From contig NZ_VFNI01000007.1 in the NCBI RefSeq assembly GCF_006715495.1, positions 124,001 to 188,000 of the forward strand: a stretch of 64,000 bases of DNA, in the 5' to 3' direction. The position numbers and the translations under genes are program-made. Positions 1,160 through 6,469 of the stretch are shown piece after piece. This DNA is from Herbaspirillum sp. SJZ106. GTDB lineage: Bacteria; Pseudomonadota; Gammaproteobacteria; Burkholderiales; Burkholderiaceae_D. The notes beneath the pieces were generated by a model. The model saw only the letters and a program-made list of their open reading frames with translations. It searched no databases and had not been told where the DNA came from. Each line of letters starts with the position of its first letter. Within the stretch, counting starts at the first letter, position 1.

Positions 1160-1188
1160 TTGACGCGCCTGCCCGACTTGGGTATTCT
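1160..1188 (+). promoter_or_regulatory. sigma70 promoter of metX-metW
   Basis: TTGACG (1160-1165), 17-base spacer, TATTCT (1183-1188). The expected start of transcription, about 1195, falls just before the first paired base of the SAM-II aptamer, which fits a riboswitch leader. Confidence 0.75.
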
Positions 1189-1197
1189 TATGCCACT

Positions 1198-1275
1198 GCG
1201 CCGATTTGAATGGTTTAACCAACCTCAGCTTGCGGGCGCCGGGAGATTGTTCCCATATAAATGCGGCTAAAGCGA
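1198..1275 (+). promoter_or_regulatory. SAM-II riboswitch aptamer in the metX leader
   Basis: Matches the SAM-II (metA motif) pattern. The P1 strand GCGCC (1198-1202) is followed by GATTTG (1203-1208), CTTGC (1229-1233), the second P1 strand GGGCGCC (1234-1240), then ATAAATG and GCTAAAG (1257-1272). These elements are conserved in known SAM-II RNAs, which bind S-adenosylmethionine in a pseudoknot. Two small hairpins appear inserted: TGGTTTAACCA (1211-1221) in the first loop and GGGA..TCCC (1241-1254) after P1. Known SAM-II RNAs often hide a ribosome-binding site; here the gene starts 212 bases later and a terminator follows instead. Assigned by eye; a covariance search was not run. Confidence 0.82.
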
Positions 1276-1304
1276 GCTTGGAGTCAGCAGTTCTCCCCAA
1301 GACG

Positions 1305-1334
1305 AGCCCGCAAGCGATGCTTCCGGGCTTTTTT
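1305..1334 (+). terminator. SAM-controlled terminator of the metX leader
   Basis: AGCCCG (1305-1310) pairs with CGGGCT (1324-1329), AAGC (1312-1315) pairs with GCTT (1319-1322), with one C-C mismatch and a GAT loop; a run of six T ends at 1334. Bases 1306-1315 are also a perfect 10-base complement of 1228-1237 inside the aptamer. Terminator and aptamer are therefore mutually exclusive with an antiterminator helix. Confidence 0.85.
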
Positions 1335-1486: not shown

Positions 1487-2629
1487 ATGTCGATTGGAAT
1501 CGTATCGCCCCAGGTCATGCATTTCGCCGAGCCGCTCCCGCTGCAAGGGGGCGCGGCGCTGGCGGATTATTCGCTGACCTATGAAACCTACGGCACGCTC
1601 AATGCGGACAAATCCAACGCCGTGCTGGTGTGCCATGCGCTCAACGCTTCGCACCACGTCGCCGGCGTGTATGCCGACGATCCCGACAATGTCGGCTGGT
1701 GGGACAACATGGTGGGCCCCGGCAAAGCGCTCGATACCGACAAGTTCTTCGTCATCGGCGTCAACAACCTGGGCTCCTGTTTCGGCTCGACCGGGCCGAT
1801 GCATGCCAACCCGGCCACCGGCAAGCCTTATGGCGCCGATTTCCCGGTGGTCACGGTGGAAGACTGGGTCAACGCCCAGGCACTGCTGGCCGACCGCCTC
1901 GGCATCGCGCAGTTCGCCGCCGTCATGGGCGGCTCGCTGGGCGGCATGCAGGCATTGGCCTGGAGCCTGATGTATCCGGAGCGCCTGCGCCATTGCCTGG
2001 TGATCGCGTCCACCCCCAAGCTGTCGGCGCAGAACATCGCTTTCAACGATGTCGCGCGCCAGGCCATCCTGACCGATCCGCAATTCCACGGCGGCGATTT
2101 CTATGCGCACGGCGTGGTGCCCAAGAACGGCCTGCGCGTGGCGCGCATGGTAGGGCACATCACCTATCTGTCGGACGATGACATGGCCGAGAAATTCGGC
2201 CGTGACCTGCGCTCGGGCAGTTATCAGTTCGGCTATGGCATCGATTTCGAGATCGAGTCCTACCTGCGCTACCAAGGCGACAAGTTTTCTACCTACTTCG
2301 ATGCCAACACCTACCTGCTGATCACCAAGGCGCTCGACTATTTCGATCCCGCGCGCGAGTTCGGCGGCGGCGACCTGGCCAAGGCCTTCAGCCGCACCCA
2401 GGCCAAGTTCCTGCTGGTGTCGTTTACCACCGACTGGCGCTTTTCCCCGGAACGCAGCCGCGAGATGGTGCAGGCGCTGGTGGCCAACAAGCGCCGCGTG
2501 TCGTATGCGGAAATCGACGCGCCGCATGGGCACGACGCTTTCCTGCTGGACGATGCGCGCTATATGAAGGTGGTGCGCGAGTACTACCAAAGCATCTGGA
2601 ACGAACTGGCGCAGGAGGGCCGCGCATGA
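1487..2629 (+). CDS. metX: Homoserine O-acyltransferase
   Basis: Acylates homoserine from acetyl- or succinyl-CoA, the first committed step of methionine synthesis. 380 residues, alpha/beta-hydrolase fold. The triad is visible: Ser150 in GGSLGGMQ, Asp316 in TTDWRFSP and His349 in PHGHDAFL. The start at 1487 (MSIGIVSPQ) matches the usual MetX N-terminus; an in-frame ATG at 1442 would add 15 unlikely residues. No clear Shine-Dalgarno precedes either. It overlaps metW by 4 bases. Proteobacterial MetX proteins are often succinyltransferases (known of the family), so the acyl donor is left open. Expression is probably shut off by SAM through the leader riboswitch. Confidence 0.96.
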
Positions 2630-3228
2630 CTTTCAACGAATTGAGCGGGCTGCGCCCGGACCTGGCGTTCATCGCCCACTGGGTGCGCGAGCAATCCAAC
2701 GTGCTGGATCTGGGCTGCGGCGATGGCGTGATGCTGGACTACCTGCAAAGCGACAAGCAGTGCGTGGGCTATGGCGTGGAGATCGACGACGAGCAGATTC
2801 CCAAGTGCGTGGCGCGCAATGTCTCGGTCATCCAGCAGGACTTGAACGGCGGGCTGGCGATGTTCGAGGACAATGCCTTCGATACCGTGCTGTGCCTGTC
2901 GGCATTGCAGATGGTCAAGGATGTGGAAGGTACGCTGCGCGAGATCGCGCGGGTGGGGCGCGAGGCCACGGTTTCCTTCCCCAATTTCGCGTACTGGCCG
3001 CACCGCGTGGCGCTGTTGCGCGGGCGCATGCCGGTGTCCAAGACGCTGCCATACCAGTGGTATGATACGCCGAACCTGCGCTGCGCCACGATCAGGGATT
3101 TCGAGGCGCTGGCCAACGCGGTCGGGCTGGAAGTGCTGGAATGCGTGGCGCTCAAGGATGGCAAGCCGGTGCGTTATCTGCCCAACTGGCGCGGCAGCGT
3201 CGCCGTGTTCAGGTTGCGCAAGAAGTAG
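2626..3228 (+). CDS. metW: MetW, methionine biosynthesis methyltransferase-like protein
   Basis: 200-residue class I methyltransferase-fold protein with the SAM-binding motif VLDLGCGDG at residues 26-34. MetW accompanies MetX in many proteobacteria and is needed for, or stimulates, homoserine acylation; it is not known to be a classical methyltransferase. The ATGA overlap with metX indicates translational coupling. It ends 84 bases before the AmpG-type gene. Confidence 0.95.
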
Positions 3229-4702: not shown

Positions 4703-4788
4703 GGAGAGGTGGCCGAGTGGTTAATGGCAGCAGACTGTAAATCTGCCCTCTTACGAGTACGCTGGTTCGAATCCAGCCCTCTCCACCA
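4703..4788 (+). tRNA. tRNA-Tyr (GTA)
   Basis: 86 bases. The acceptor stem GGAGAGG pairs with CCTCTCC, the anticodon GTA is at 4737-4739, a long variable arm is typical of tyrosine tRNA, the T arm is GGTTCGAATCC and the CCA end is encoded. First of a Tyr-Gly-Thr cluster in front of tuf, as in many proteobacteria. Confidence 0.97.
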
Positions 4789-4846
4789 TTTAGTCGGGAA
4801 AGTCGAACGAAAGATTCGGCGGCAGTGAAGTGAAAGTTGTTTCCTC

Positions 4847-4920
4847 GCGGGTGTAGCTCAATGGTAGAGCTGAAGCCTTCCAAGCTTAAGACGAGGGTTC
4901 GATTCCCTTCACCCGCTCCA
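4847..4920 (+). tRNA. tRNA-Gly (TCC)
   Basis: 74 bases including an encoded CCA. The acceptor GCGGGTG pairs with CACCCGC and the anticodon TCC is at 4879-4881 within the loop CTTCCAA. The outermost anticodon-stem pair (27:43) reads G-A rather than a Watson-Crick pair; the other four pair normally. Confidence 0.97.
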
Positions 4921-4967
4921 AGTTTTGGTCCGGTTGCATGTTTGGTAGTTGTGCAATTGGCAAAAAT

Positions 4968-5042
<75 letters not shown>

Positions 5043-5121
5043 GTTTCTTGAGTCGTTTCGCTGAGGCAAGTCAGCAATCGTCGGGCGTGTTGCCTGGACA
5101 TTCTCATCAAATAGTTAGGAG

Positions 5122-6316
5122 TCTAAAATGGCAAAAGGCAAGTTTGAGCGGACCAAGCCGCACGTGAACGTGGGCACGATTGGCCACGTTGACCACGGCA
5201 AGACCACGCTGACCGCAGCGATTGCGACCGTCCTGTCGAAGAAGTTCGGCGGCGAAGCGAAGGCATATGACCAGATCGACGCGGCACCGGAAGAAAAGGC
5301 GCGCGGCATCACGATCAACACCGCGCACGTCGAATACGAAACTGCAAACCGCCACTACGCGCACGTTGACTGCCCCGGCCACGCCGACTACGTCAAGAAC
5401 ATGATTACCGGTGCAGCGCAGATGGACGGCGCGATCCTGGTGTGCTCGGCCGCAGACGGCCCGATGCCGCAGACGCGCGAACACATCCTGCTGTCGCGCC
5501 AGGTTGGCGTTCCTTACATCATCGTGTTCCTGAACAAGGCCGACATGGTGGACGACGCCGAGCTGCTGGAGCTGGTGGAAATGGAAGTGCGCGAACTGCT
5601 GTCGAAGTACGAGTTCCCGGGCGACGACCTGCCAATCGTGAAGGGTTCGGCCAAGCTGGCGCTGGAAGGCGACACGGGTCCGCTGGGCGAGCAGGCGATC
5701 ATGGCGTTGGCCGAAGCGCTGGACAGCTACATTCCGACGCCGGAACGTGCCGTTGACGGTACCTTCCTGATGCCGGTGGAAGACGTGTTCTCGATCTCGG
5801 GCCGCGGCACCGTGGTGACCGGTCGTGTCGAGCGCGGCATCGTCAAGGTTGGCGAAGAAATCGAAATCGTCGGTATCCGCGACACCCAGAAGACCACCTG
5901 CACCGGCGTGGAAATGTTCCGCAAGCTGCTGGACCAGGGTCAAGCTGGCGACAACGTCGGCGTGCTGCTGCGCGGCACCAAGCGTGAAGACGTGGAGCGT
6001 GGCCAGGTGTTGGCCAAGCCGGGTTCGATCAAGCCGCACAAGCACTTCACCGGCGAGATCTATGTCCTGTCGAAGGACGAAGGCGGCCGTCACACCCCGT
6101 TCTTCAACAACTACCGTCCGCAGTTCTACTTCCGTACCACGGACGTGACCGGCGCGATCGAACTGCCGAAGGACAAGGAAATGGTCATGCCGGGCGACAA
6201 CGTGTCGATCACCGTGCAACTGATCAACCCGATCGCGATGGAAGAAGGCCTGCGTTTCGCTATCCGTGAAGGCGGTCGTACCGTCGGCGCCGGCGTCGTC
6301 GCCAAGATCTTCGACT
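5122..6316 (+). repeat. tuf repeat, copy 1
   Basis: A 1,195-base block that reads identically to 22684-23878. Identity starts 6 bases before the ATG (TCTAAA) and ends in the stop codon (TAA here, TGA in the other copy). All alternative-frame translations of the two blocks also agree, which supports nucleotide identity. Confidence 0.95.
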
Positions 6317-6318
6317 AA
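5128..6318 (+). CDS. tuf: Elongation factor Tu, copy 1
   Basis: 396-residue GTPase that brings aminoacyl-tRNA to the ribosomal A site. G1 is GHVDHGKT (19-26), G3 is DCPGHADY and G4 is NKAD, followed by two beta-barrel domains. The start has an AGGAG-type site (GTTAGGAG) 6 bases upstream. It lies between tRNA-Thr and tRNA-Trp, the position of the E. coli tufB gene. The protein is identical to copy 2 at 22690. Confidence 0.99.
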
Positions 6319-6393
6319 GATCAAGCTGTAAAACACCTTGCCGCGCTGCGAATTTCGCATCGCGGCATTCGTGTCTCAATCGAGAGTTTTTGT

Positions 6394-6469
6394 AGGGGCG
6401 TAGCTCAATTGGCAGAGCGTCGGTCTCCAAAACCGAAGGTTGGGGGTTCGATGCCCTCCGCCCCTGCCA
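6394..6469 (+). tRNA. tRNA-Trp (CCA)
   Basis: 76 bases. The acceptor AGGGGCG pairs with CGCCCCT, the anticodon CCA is at 6427-6429, the discriminator is G and the CCA end is encoded. It sits between tuf and secE, a conserved proteobacterial order. Confidence 0.97.

Follow-up and report, generated by a model that had tools for sequence, protein, structure and literature searches.

How is metX controlled in Herbaspirillum sp. SJZ106, and could its leader be a SAM-II riboswitch wired to a terminator? In the window (the whole 64,000-nucleotide stretch of DNA that was analyzed), the forward strand from 1089, where a PTS enzyme I-like gene stops, to 1487, where metX starts, holds a promoter, an aptamer and a terminator. 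Reading the leader itself (1160-1334, forward strand), we find a promoter, a SAM-II core, a terminator hairpin and a perfect 10-base complement. After the promoter the order is GCGCC-GATTTGA-[hairpin]-CAGCTTGC-GGGCGC-[hairpin]-AAATGCGGCTAAAGC, and then come the terminator hairpin and six Ts. We conclude that the leader is very probably a beta-proteobacterial metX-type SAM-II riboswitch with two added loop hairpins, which would switch off transcription of metX-metW. The features are the following.

1160-1188, forward strand: sigma70-type promoter TTGACG-17-TATTCT, 9 of 12 matches (0.2 expected per shuffle)
1198-1202, forward strand: P1 5' strand GCGCC, pairing with GGCGC at 1235-1239
1203-1209, forward strand: conserved SAM-II core loop GAUUUGA (GATTTGA in DNA), aligned to the RF00521 consensus in the homologue L039
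1212-1224, forward strand: inserted hairpin 1, GGUU (1212-1215) with AACC (1221-1224), from the comparison of relatives
1226-1233, forward strand: P2 5' strand CAGCUUGC, its GCUUGC aligned to RF00521 in L039; 1228-1233 double as putative antiterminator
1228-1237, forward strand: putative antiterminator 5' strand GCUUGCGGGC, by exact complementarity
1234-1239, forward strand: P1 3' strand GGGCGC, of which GGCGC (1235-1239) pairs with 1198-1202 and 1234-1237 double as putative antiterminator
1241-1254, forward strand: inserted hairpin 2, GGGAG (1241-1245) with UUCCC (1250-1254), from the comparison of relatives
1259-1273, forward strand: conserved AAAUGCGGCUAAAGC, P2 3' strand and predicted ligand pocket, its GCUAAAG aligned to RF00521 in L039 and L041
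1304-1334, forward strand: intrinsic terminator, with a hairpin at 1304-1330 (-15.1 kcal/mol) and a T6 tract at 1329-1334
1306-1315, forward strand: putative antiterminator 3' strand GCCCGCAAGC, the left part of the terminator, identical in 15 of 25 same-genus leaders
1487-2629, forward strand: metX (NCBIfam NF047916 MetX, 681.7 bits)
2626-3228, forward strand: metW, overlapping metX by 4 bases (TIGR02081, 237.8 bits)

P2 is presumed to pair as in known SAM-II RNAs and as the complementarity of its strands suggests, and 1259-1273 presumably forms the ligand pocket, as in SAM-II structures. For MetX, the succinyltransferase-type model (NF047916) is the best in NCBIfam and scores above the acetyltransferase models. 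Further downstream (4703-6466), four tRNA genes surround an ORF that resembles elongation factor Tu by eye, which is an ordinary arrangement.

The first-pass annotation of this DNA had placed a sigma70 promoter, a SAM-II aptamer at the expected transcript start and a strong terminator in the leader, and all three are borne out. The -10 box ends at 1188 and the aptamer core begins at 1198, about at the expected transcription start. A letter pattern for the form with both inserts found 51 stretches in genomes labeled Herbaspirillum, Collimonas, Noviherbaspirillum, Glaciimonas, Herminiimonas and other Oxalobacteraceae or Burkholderiales, with a few metagenome bins among them labeled otherwise (L074, L080, L113); these loci were selected by the letter pattern alone. 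A -10 box is present in 43 of these 51 leaders and an upstream TTGAC in 42, and the distance from the end of the -10 box to the start of P1 is 9 nt in 38 of the 43. A terminator was recognized in 91 of 95 related leaders. In the window, a simple terminator scan did not list 1304-1330 and gave another site, 1170-1184. Directly after the aptamer core, GCGAGCUUG at 1272-1280 is invariant in 17 aligned same-genus leaders while the spacer behind it varies, and in many same-genus leaders it could pair with a downstream CAAG as a small hairpin.

The curated covariance models do not recognize the aptamer. A search of 1000-1560 with all Rfam families and E values up to 10 gave zero matches to RF00521 or RF01726, and at the gathering threshold the metX leader had no Rfam match within the window. 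On the organism's own genome, RF00521 had no match at the metX leader (150 of 1008 candidates scored) and RF01726 had no match at all (150 of 532 candidates scored). Weak RF00521 matches elsewhere in this genome (best E 0.57) were set aside as chance, since all 14 control genomes match at the same threshold. Among 145 genomes of the family, RF00521 reached E ≤0.01 in 45 and passed its cut-off in 2, and the eight same-genus genomes among those listed had no match.

The link to SAM-II comes from compact relatives. Of 30 loci fetched from the family search, 21 have metX, and in all 21 the leader has a compact core with the same letters, in which no more than a few bases stand in the places of the window's hairpins. 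One of the two genomes above the cut-off has a metX leader (L039), whose score of 40.6 bits exceeds the cut-off of 36 and whose GAUUUG, GCUUGC and GCUAAAG fall on the SAM-II consensus. The window leader carries GAUUUG ... GCUUGC ... GCUAAA in this order around P1, and it sits upstream of the methionine/SAM synthesis genes metX and metW. Because the compact metX homologues share the core and L039 passes the cut-off, the window element is best read, on sequence homology, as a SAM-II RNA with two insertions. Its failure to reach the RF00521 threshold is a matter of detection and not a biological feature. The complementary strands of P1 and P2 are both present and nearly invariant in the group, so that covariation is no proof of either helix here. 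The claimed SAM-II identity thus draws support from homology, conservation and folding, although the RF00521 model misses the window element itself; the RF00521 search that the first-pass annotation had proposed as a check gave its positive result on the compact homologue and none on the window.

Related leaders also occur in other settings. Some SAM-II-like leaders have no metX in the locus: L040 appears by eye to precede a metH-like gene, and L046 and L065 metZ-type sulfhydrylases. In other loci a second SAM-II-like core lies 70-144 bases past the first core, beyond the first terminator (L189, L191, L192 and L203, all of family f5, and also L056, L188 and L197); a regular expression counted such tandems in 6 of 161 leader matches, and L189 was recognized by eye. 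In the f5 loci, a small ORF and a gene that looks by eye like a MATE-type transporter follow.

The architecture is widely conserved. Upstream of metX, the core, both inserts and the T tract that follows are found in 25 of 25 same-genus leaders. Model R1, based on 17 same-genus leaders, has matches at E 0.001 in 231 of 399 genomes of the order (109 of 158 genera), and a letter pattern was found in 182 of the 399. The figures for RF00521 (cut-off in 2 and E 0.01 in 45 of 145 family genomes) come from a different genome set and threshold and are not like-for-like with those of R1. The curated SAM-II model misses these RNAs. P1 is nearly constant: GCGCC and GGGCGC are each present in 29 of 30 order-wide loci fetched by a pattern that does not include P1, and the count is limited to these 30 as the other leader patterns required GGGCGC. 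Other listed matches of the P1-free kind (L187-L192) depart from GCGCC/GGGCGC. A near-constant P1 fits a strand that has a second task in an antiterminator; common descent would explain it more simply.

The two small inserted hairpins that had been noticed in the window are backed by the comparison of relatives. We aligned 60 rows (the window, L009-L032 and 35 of the 51 pattern loci), which contain 46 distinct insert pairs. At the first insert, at least 3 anchored pairs form in 29 of 35 distinct sequences (mean 3.9, versus 1.0 for shuffles and 2.6 for swapped arms); at the second, at least 4 form in 42 of 45 (mean 5.1, versus 1.4 and 3.0). The sequences below these marks (6 first and 3 second inserts) include some with a stem in another register by eye. 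Both inserts vary in sequence yet keep their stems, as RNA structure does. An earlier pairing of hairpin 1, UGG/CCA, which had been used for model R1, was dropped because GGUU/AACC fits the 60 rows better.

We then consider how the aptamer might be connected to the terminator. The perfect complement is exact in sequence, as had been claimed: read in reverse complement, 1228-1237 (GCTTGCGGGC) gives 1306-1315 (GCCCGCAAGC). Counted over both strands, the 4.58 Mb genome has 47 copies of the 10-mer and 16 of the same letters read backwards. Among 145 terminator hairpins in 464 kb of the genome (both strands), GCCCGCAAGC is found only in the leader's own hairpin, and an exact complement of 10 bases to some part of the aptamer occurs in just 1 of the 144 others. 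Duplex energy was rejected as proof of an antiterminator, since it is unexceptional and 22 of the 144 control terminators are as good or better. The left half contains CCCG, complementary to CGGG of the P1 3' strand, in 64 of 66 distinct leader terminators versus 22 of 144 other terminators of the genome; the 66 come from many genomes and are kin by descent, hence not independent cases.

Folding with ViennaRNA, which models neither pseudoknot nor ligand, gives different results for the truncated and the complete transcript. For a transcript that ends at 1318, the lowest-energy fold contains the 10-bp antiterminator (-39.5 kcal/mol). In the complete leader, the terminator with P1 has -46.6 kcal/mol versus -44.2 kcal/mol when the antiterminator is enforced. 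Even in the absence of SAM, the complete leader thus favors the terminator, by 2.4 kcal/mol, so that control has to be kinetic or partial. The antiterminator excludes both the terminator and P1.

The same folding covered 91 related leaders (loci up to L148), 4 of an initial 95 being left out for want of a recognized terminator. Among the 91, the predicted wiring is a helix of this kind in 39, the P2 3' strand in 19 and another in 9, and 24 are unclassified; in 23 of these 24, folding pairs 4 arm bases with the P2 3' strand. Within the genus the arm is GCCCGCAAGC in 15 of 25 leaders and the helix folds in 21 of 25, while the aptamer-terminator spacer varies. According to these predictions, the 10-base helix would hold for the genus and is not a general design, and the wiring probably differs from that of many relatives. 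The switch proposed in the first-pass annotation is supported in part: the truncated transcript folds its antiterminator, and folding predicts a helix of this kind in 39 of the 91 related leaders.

We infer that the metX leader binds SAM and that its termination depends on SAM. When SAM is scarce, the emerging RNA would pair 1228-1237 with 1306-1315 while the terminator still lacks its right arm, and with this antiterminator in place the polymerase would read into metX. When SAM is plentiful, it would lock the P1/P2 pseudoknot and so occupy the bases that the antiterminator needs; with the antiterminator blocked, 1304-1330 would fold and transcription would end at about 1334. A termination OFF switch wired through this antiterminator agrees with homology, conservation and folding.

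In relatives, this leader seems to have been described under another label. Khoo et al. (2012) described Bp2_Cand287, now RF02424 (Bp2_287), as an sRNA upstream of methionine genes in most genomes; in the available part of that paper, the family goes back to an RT-PCR-validated candidate that its authors took for a possible cis element in methionine metabolism. At E 0.01, 61 RF02424 matches are listed in 50 of 145 family genomes, none above the family's own cut-off. Of these 61, 32 overlap RF00521 matches, and all 32 lie on the opposite strand; L039 and L041 are examples in which both models match one stretch on opposite strands. Among 30 fetched RF02424 matches (L119-L148), the SAM-II core is on the opposite strand in 26, on the same strand in 0 and on neither in 4. 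An independent sRNA was rejected by strand on these counts, which suggests that RF02424 may represent the wrong (antisense) strand of beta-proteobacterial SAM-II leaders.

Three rival explanations were considered. If the SAM-II aptamer and the terminator are real, the antiterminator could instead be the P2 3' strand (CGGCUAAA with UUUAGCC of the terminator left arm), which would make the 10-base match secondary. This wiring folds in the 19 leaders mentioned above and is approached by the 23 unclassified ones, and Barrick and Breaker (2007), in the part available, describe SAM-II as meeting its platform through the distal pseudoknot. In the window, however, the left arm GACGAGCCCGC lacks UUUAG and allows only about 5 pairs, and the transcript to 1318 folds the 10-bp helix, as do 21 of the 25 same-genus leaders. 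Covariation for this alternative is also weak: the base before GCUAAA could pair with the terminator in 41 of 44 leaders, against a permutation mean of 39.3 (153 of 5000 permutations as good), and the motif is found in only 44 of 141 leaders. We consider it unlikely.

It is very improbable, in our view, that the same architecture senses another ligand, such as SAH or a methionine precursor. The two inserts do lie in loops that adjoin the pocket, we found no ligand test on the enlarged type in the open-licence PMC literature, and the title of one paper (PMC10853860) names a spermidine riboswitch obtained from a near variant of a SAM aptamer. Against this, the core letters equal those of the compact leaders, one of which is above the SAM-II cut-off, and the leader precedes metX. 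A leader that is constitutive or yields an sRNA, without ligand control (the small-RNA reading of RF02424), could appeal to the RT-PCR validation, and terminated leaders would appear as small RNAs; yet the opposite strand of all 32 overlapping matches and the cis element suggested by the authors themselves make it extremely improbable. We therefore retain the SAM-II OFF switch for metX-metW.

A broader proposal is more tentative, and we hold it as possible though on balance doubtful. In Oxalobacteraceae, SAM-II aptamers may be an enlarged subclass in which the two hairpins add new tertiary contacts and so alter affinity or folding speed; Herbaspirillum may have been rewired so that one 10-bp antiterminator takes P1 and P2 strands at once; P1 may be frozen in beta-proteobacteria through its double role in antitermination; and the orphan metXZ element would thereby be SAM-II order-wide.

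Comparison with known systems separates what is familiar here from what is new; the papers are cited for the parts of their text that were available. The metX leader resembles RF00521, SAM_alpha (Corbino et al. 2005), in its GAUUUG, GCUUGC and GCUAAAG core, its one stem with a predicted pseudoknot, the promoter just upstream of P1, the methionine gene and the terminator, but differs in having two extra loop hairpins and no match to the model. The first-pass annotation had regarded a clean termination design as a departure for SAM-II. This view does not survive, as SAM-II RNAs with terminators are not unusual (Barrick and Breaker 2007); Corbino et al. (2005) reported putative terminators after many of them. 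The SAM-II long loops family RF01726 (Weinberg et al. 2010) shares enlarged loops by name, but is listed for Bacteroidetes and marine samples, and the metX leader is unmatched at an E of 10. For the SAM-II of S. meliloti metZ (Scheuer et al. 2022), termination was predicted and a short RNA was more abundant in rich medium; that RNA is alpha-proteobacterial, and the available text does not mention inserts. RF02424 covers the same genomic stretch as the SAM-II leader in many relatives, but is modeled as an sRNA on the opposite strand.

A close counterpart is the metXZ element of Leyn et al. (2014), a beta-proteobacterial leader of metXW or metZ for which the authors described a pseudoknot and a terminator and guessed at an antiterminator. 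It has six conserved regions, of which the highly conserved region 3 is described as lacking a complement within the element. In the available text it is not equated with SAM-II, and SAM_alpha is given only for Rhizobiales and Rhodobacterales. The conserved, terminator-bearing metX leaders of beta-proteobacterial relatives agree with it, and from the match in taxa, genes and anatomy, set against the text description only, we infer that the metX leader is the metXZ element. The beta-proteobacterial leader thus appears to have been reported twice without a SAM-II label, as metXZ and as RF02424.

In the open-licence PMC literature, we found no SAM-II tied to Herbaspirillum or Oxalobacteraceae, no measurements of binding or termination for the metX leader RNA, only Leyn et al. 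(2014) for metXZ with riboswitch and for SAM-II with Burkholderiales and metX, and nothing on the enlarged form, the genus-specific wiring, metXZ as SAM-II or the strand problem of RF02424. The available parts of a B. cenocepacia start-site study (PMC4603805) and an attenuation survey (PMC2965389) do not mention metX. The SAM-II class and the type of mechanism are already known. New, to judge from this literature, are the probable enlarged SAM-II variant, the proposed identification of metXZ and RF02424 with SAM-II leaders, and a predicted antiterminator wiring unlike that of many relatives. With these, metXZ, a conserved beta-proteobacterial leader, gains a concrete ligand hypothesis, namely SAM.
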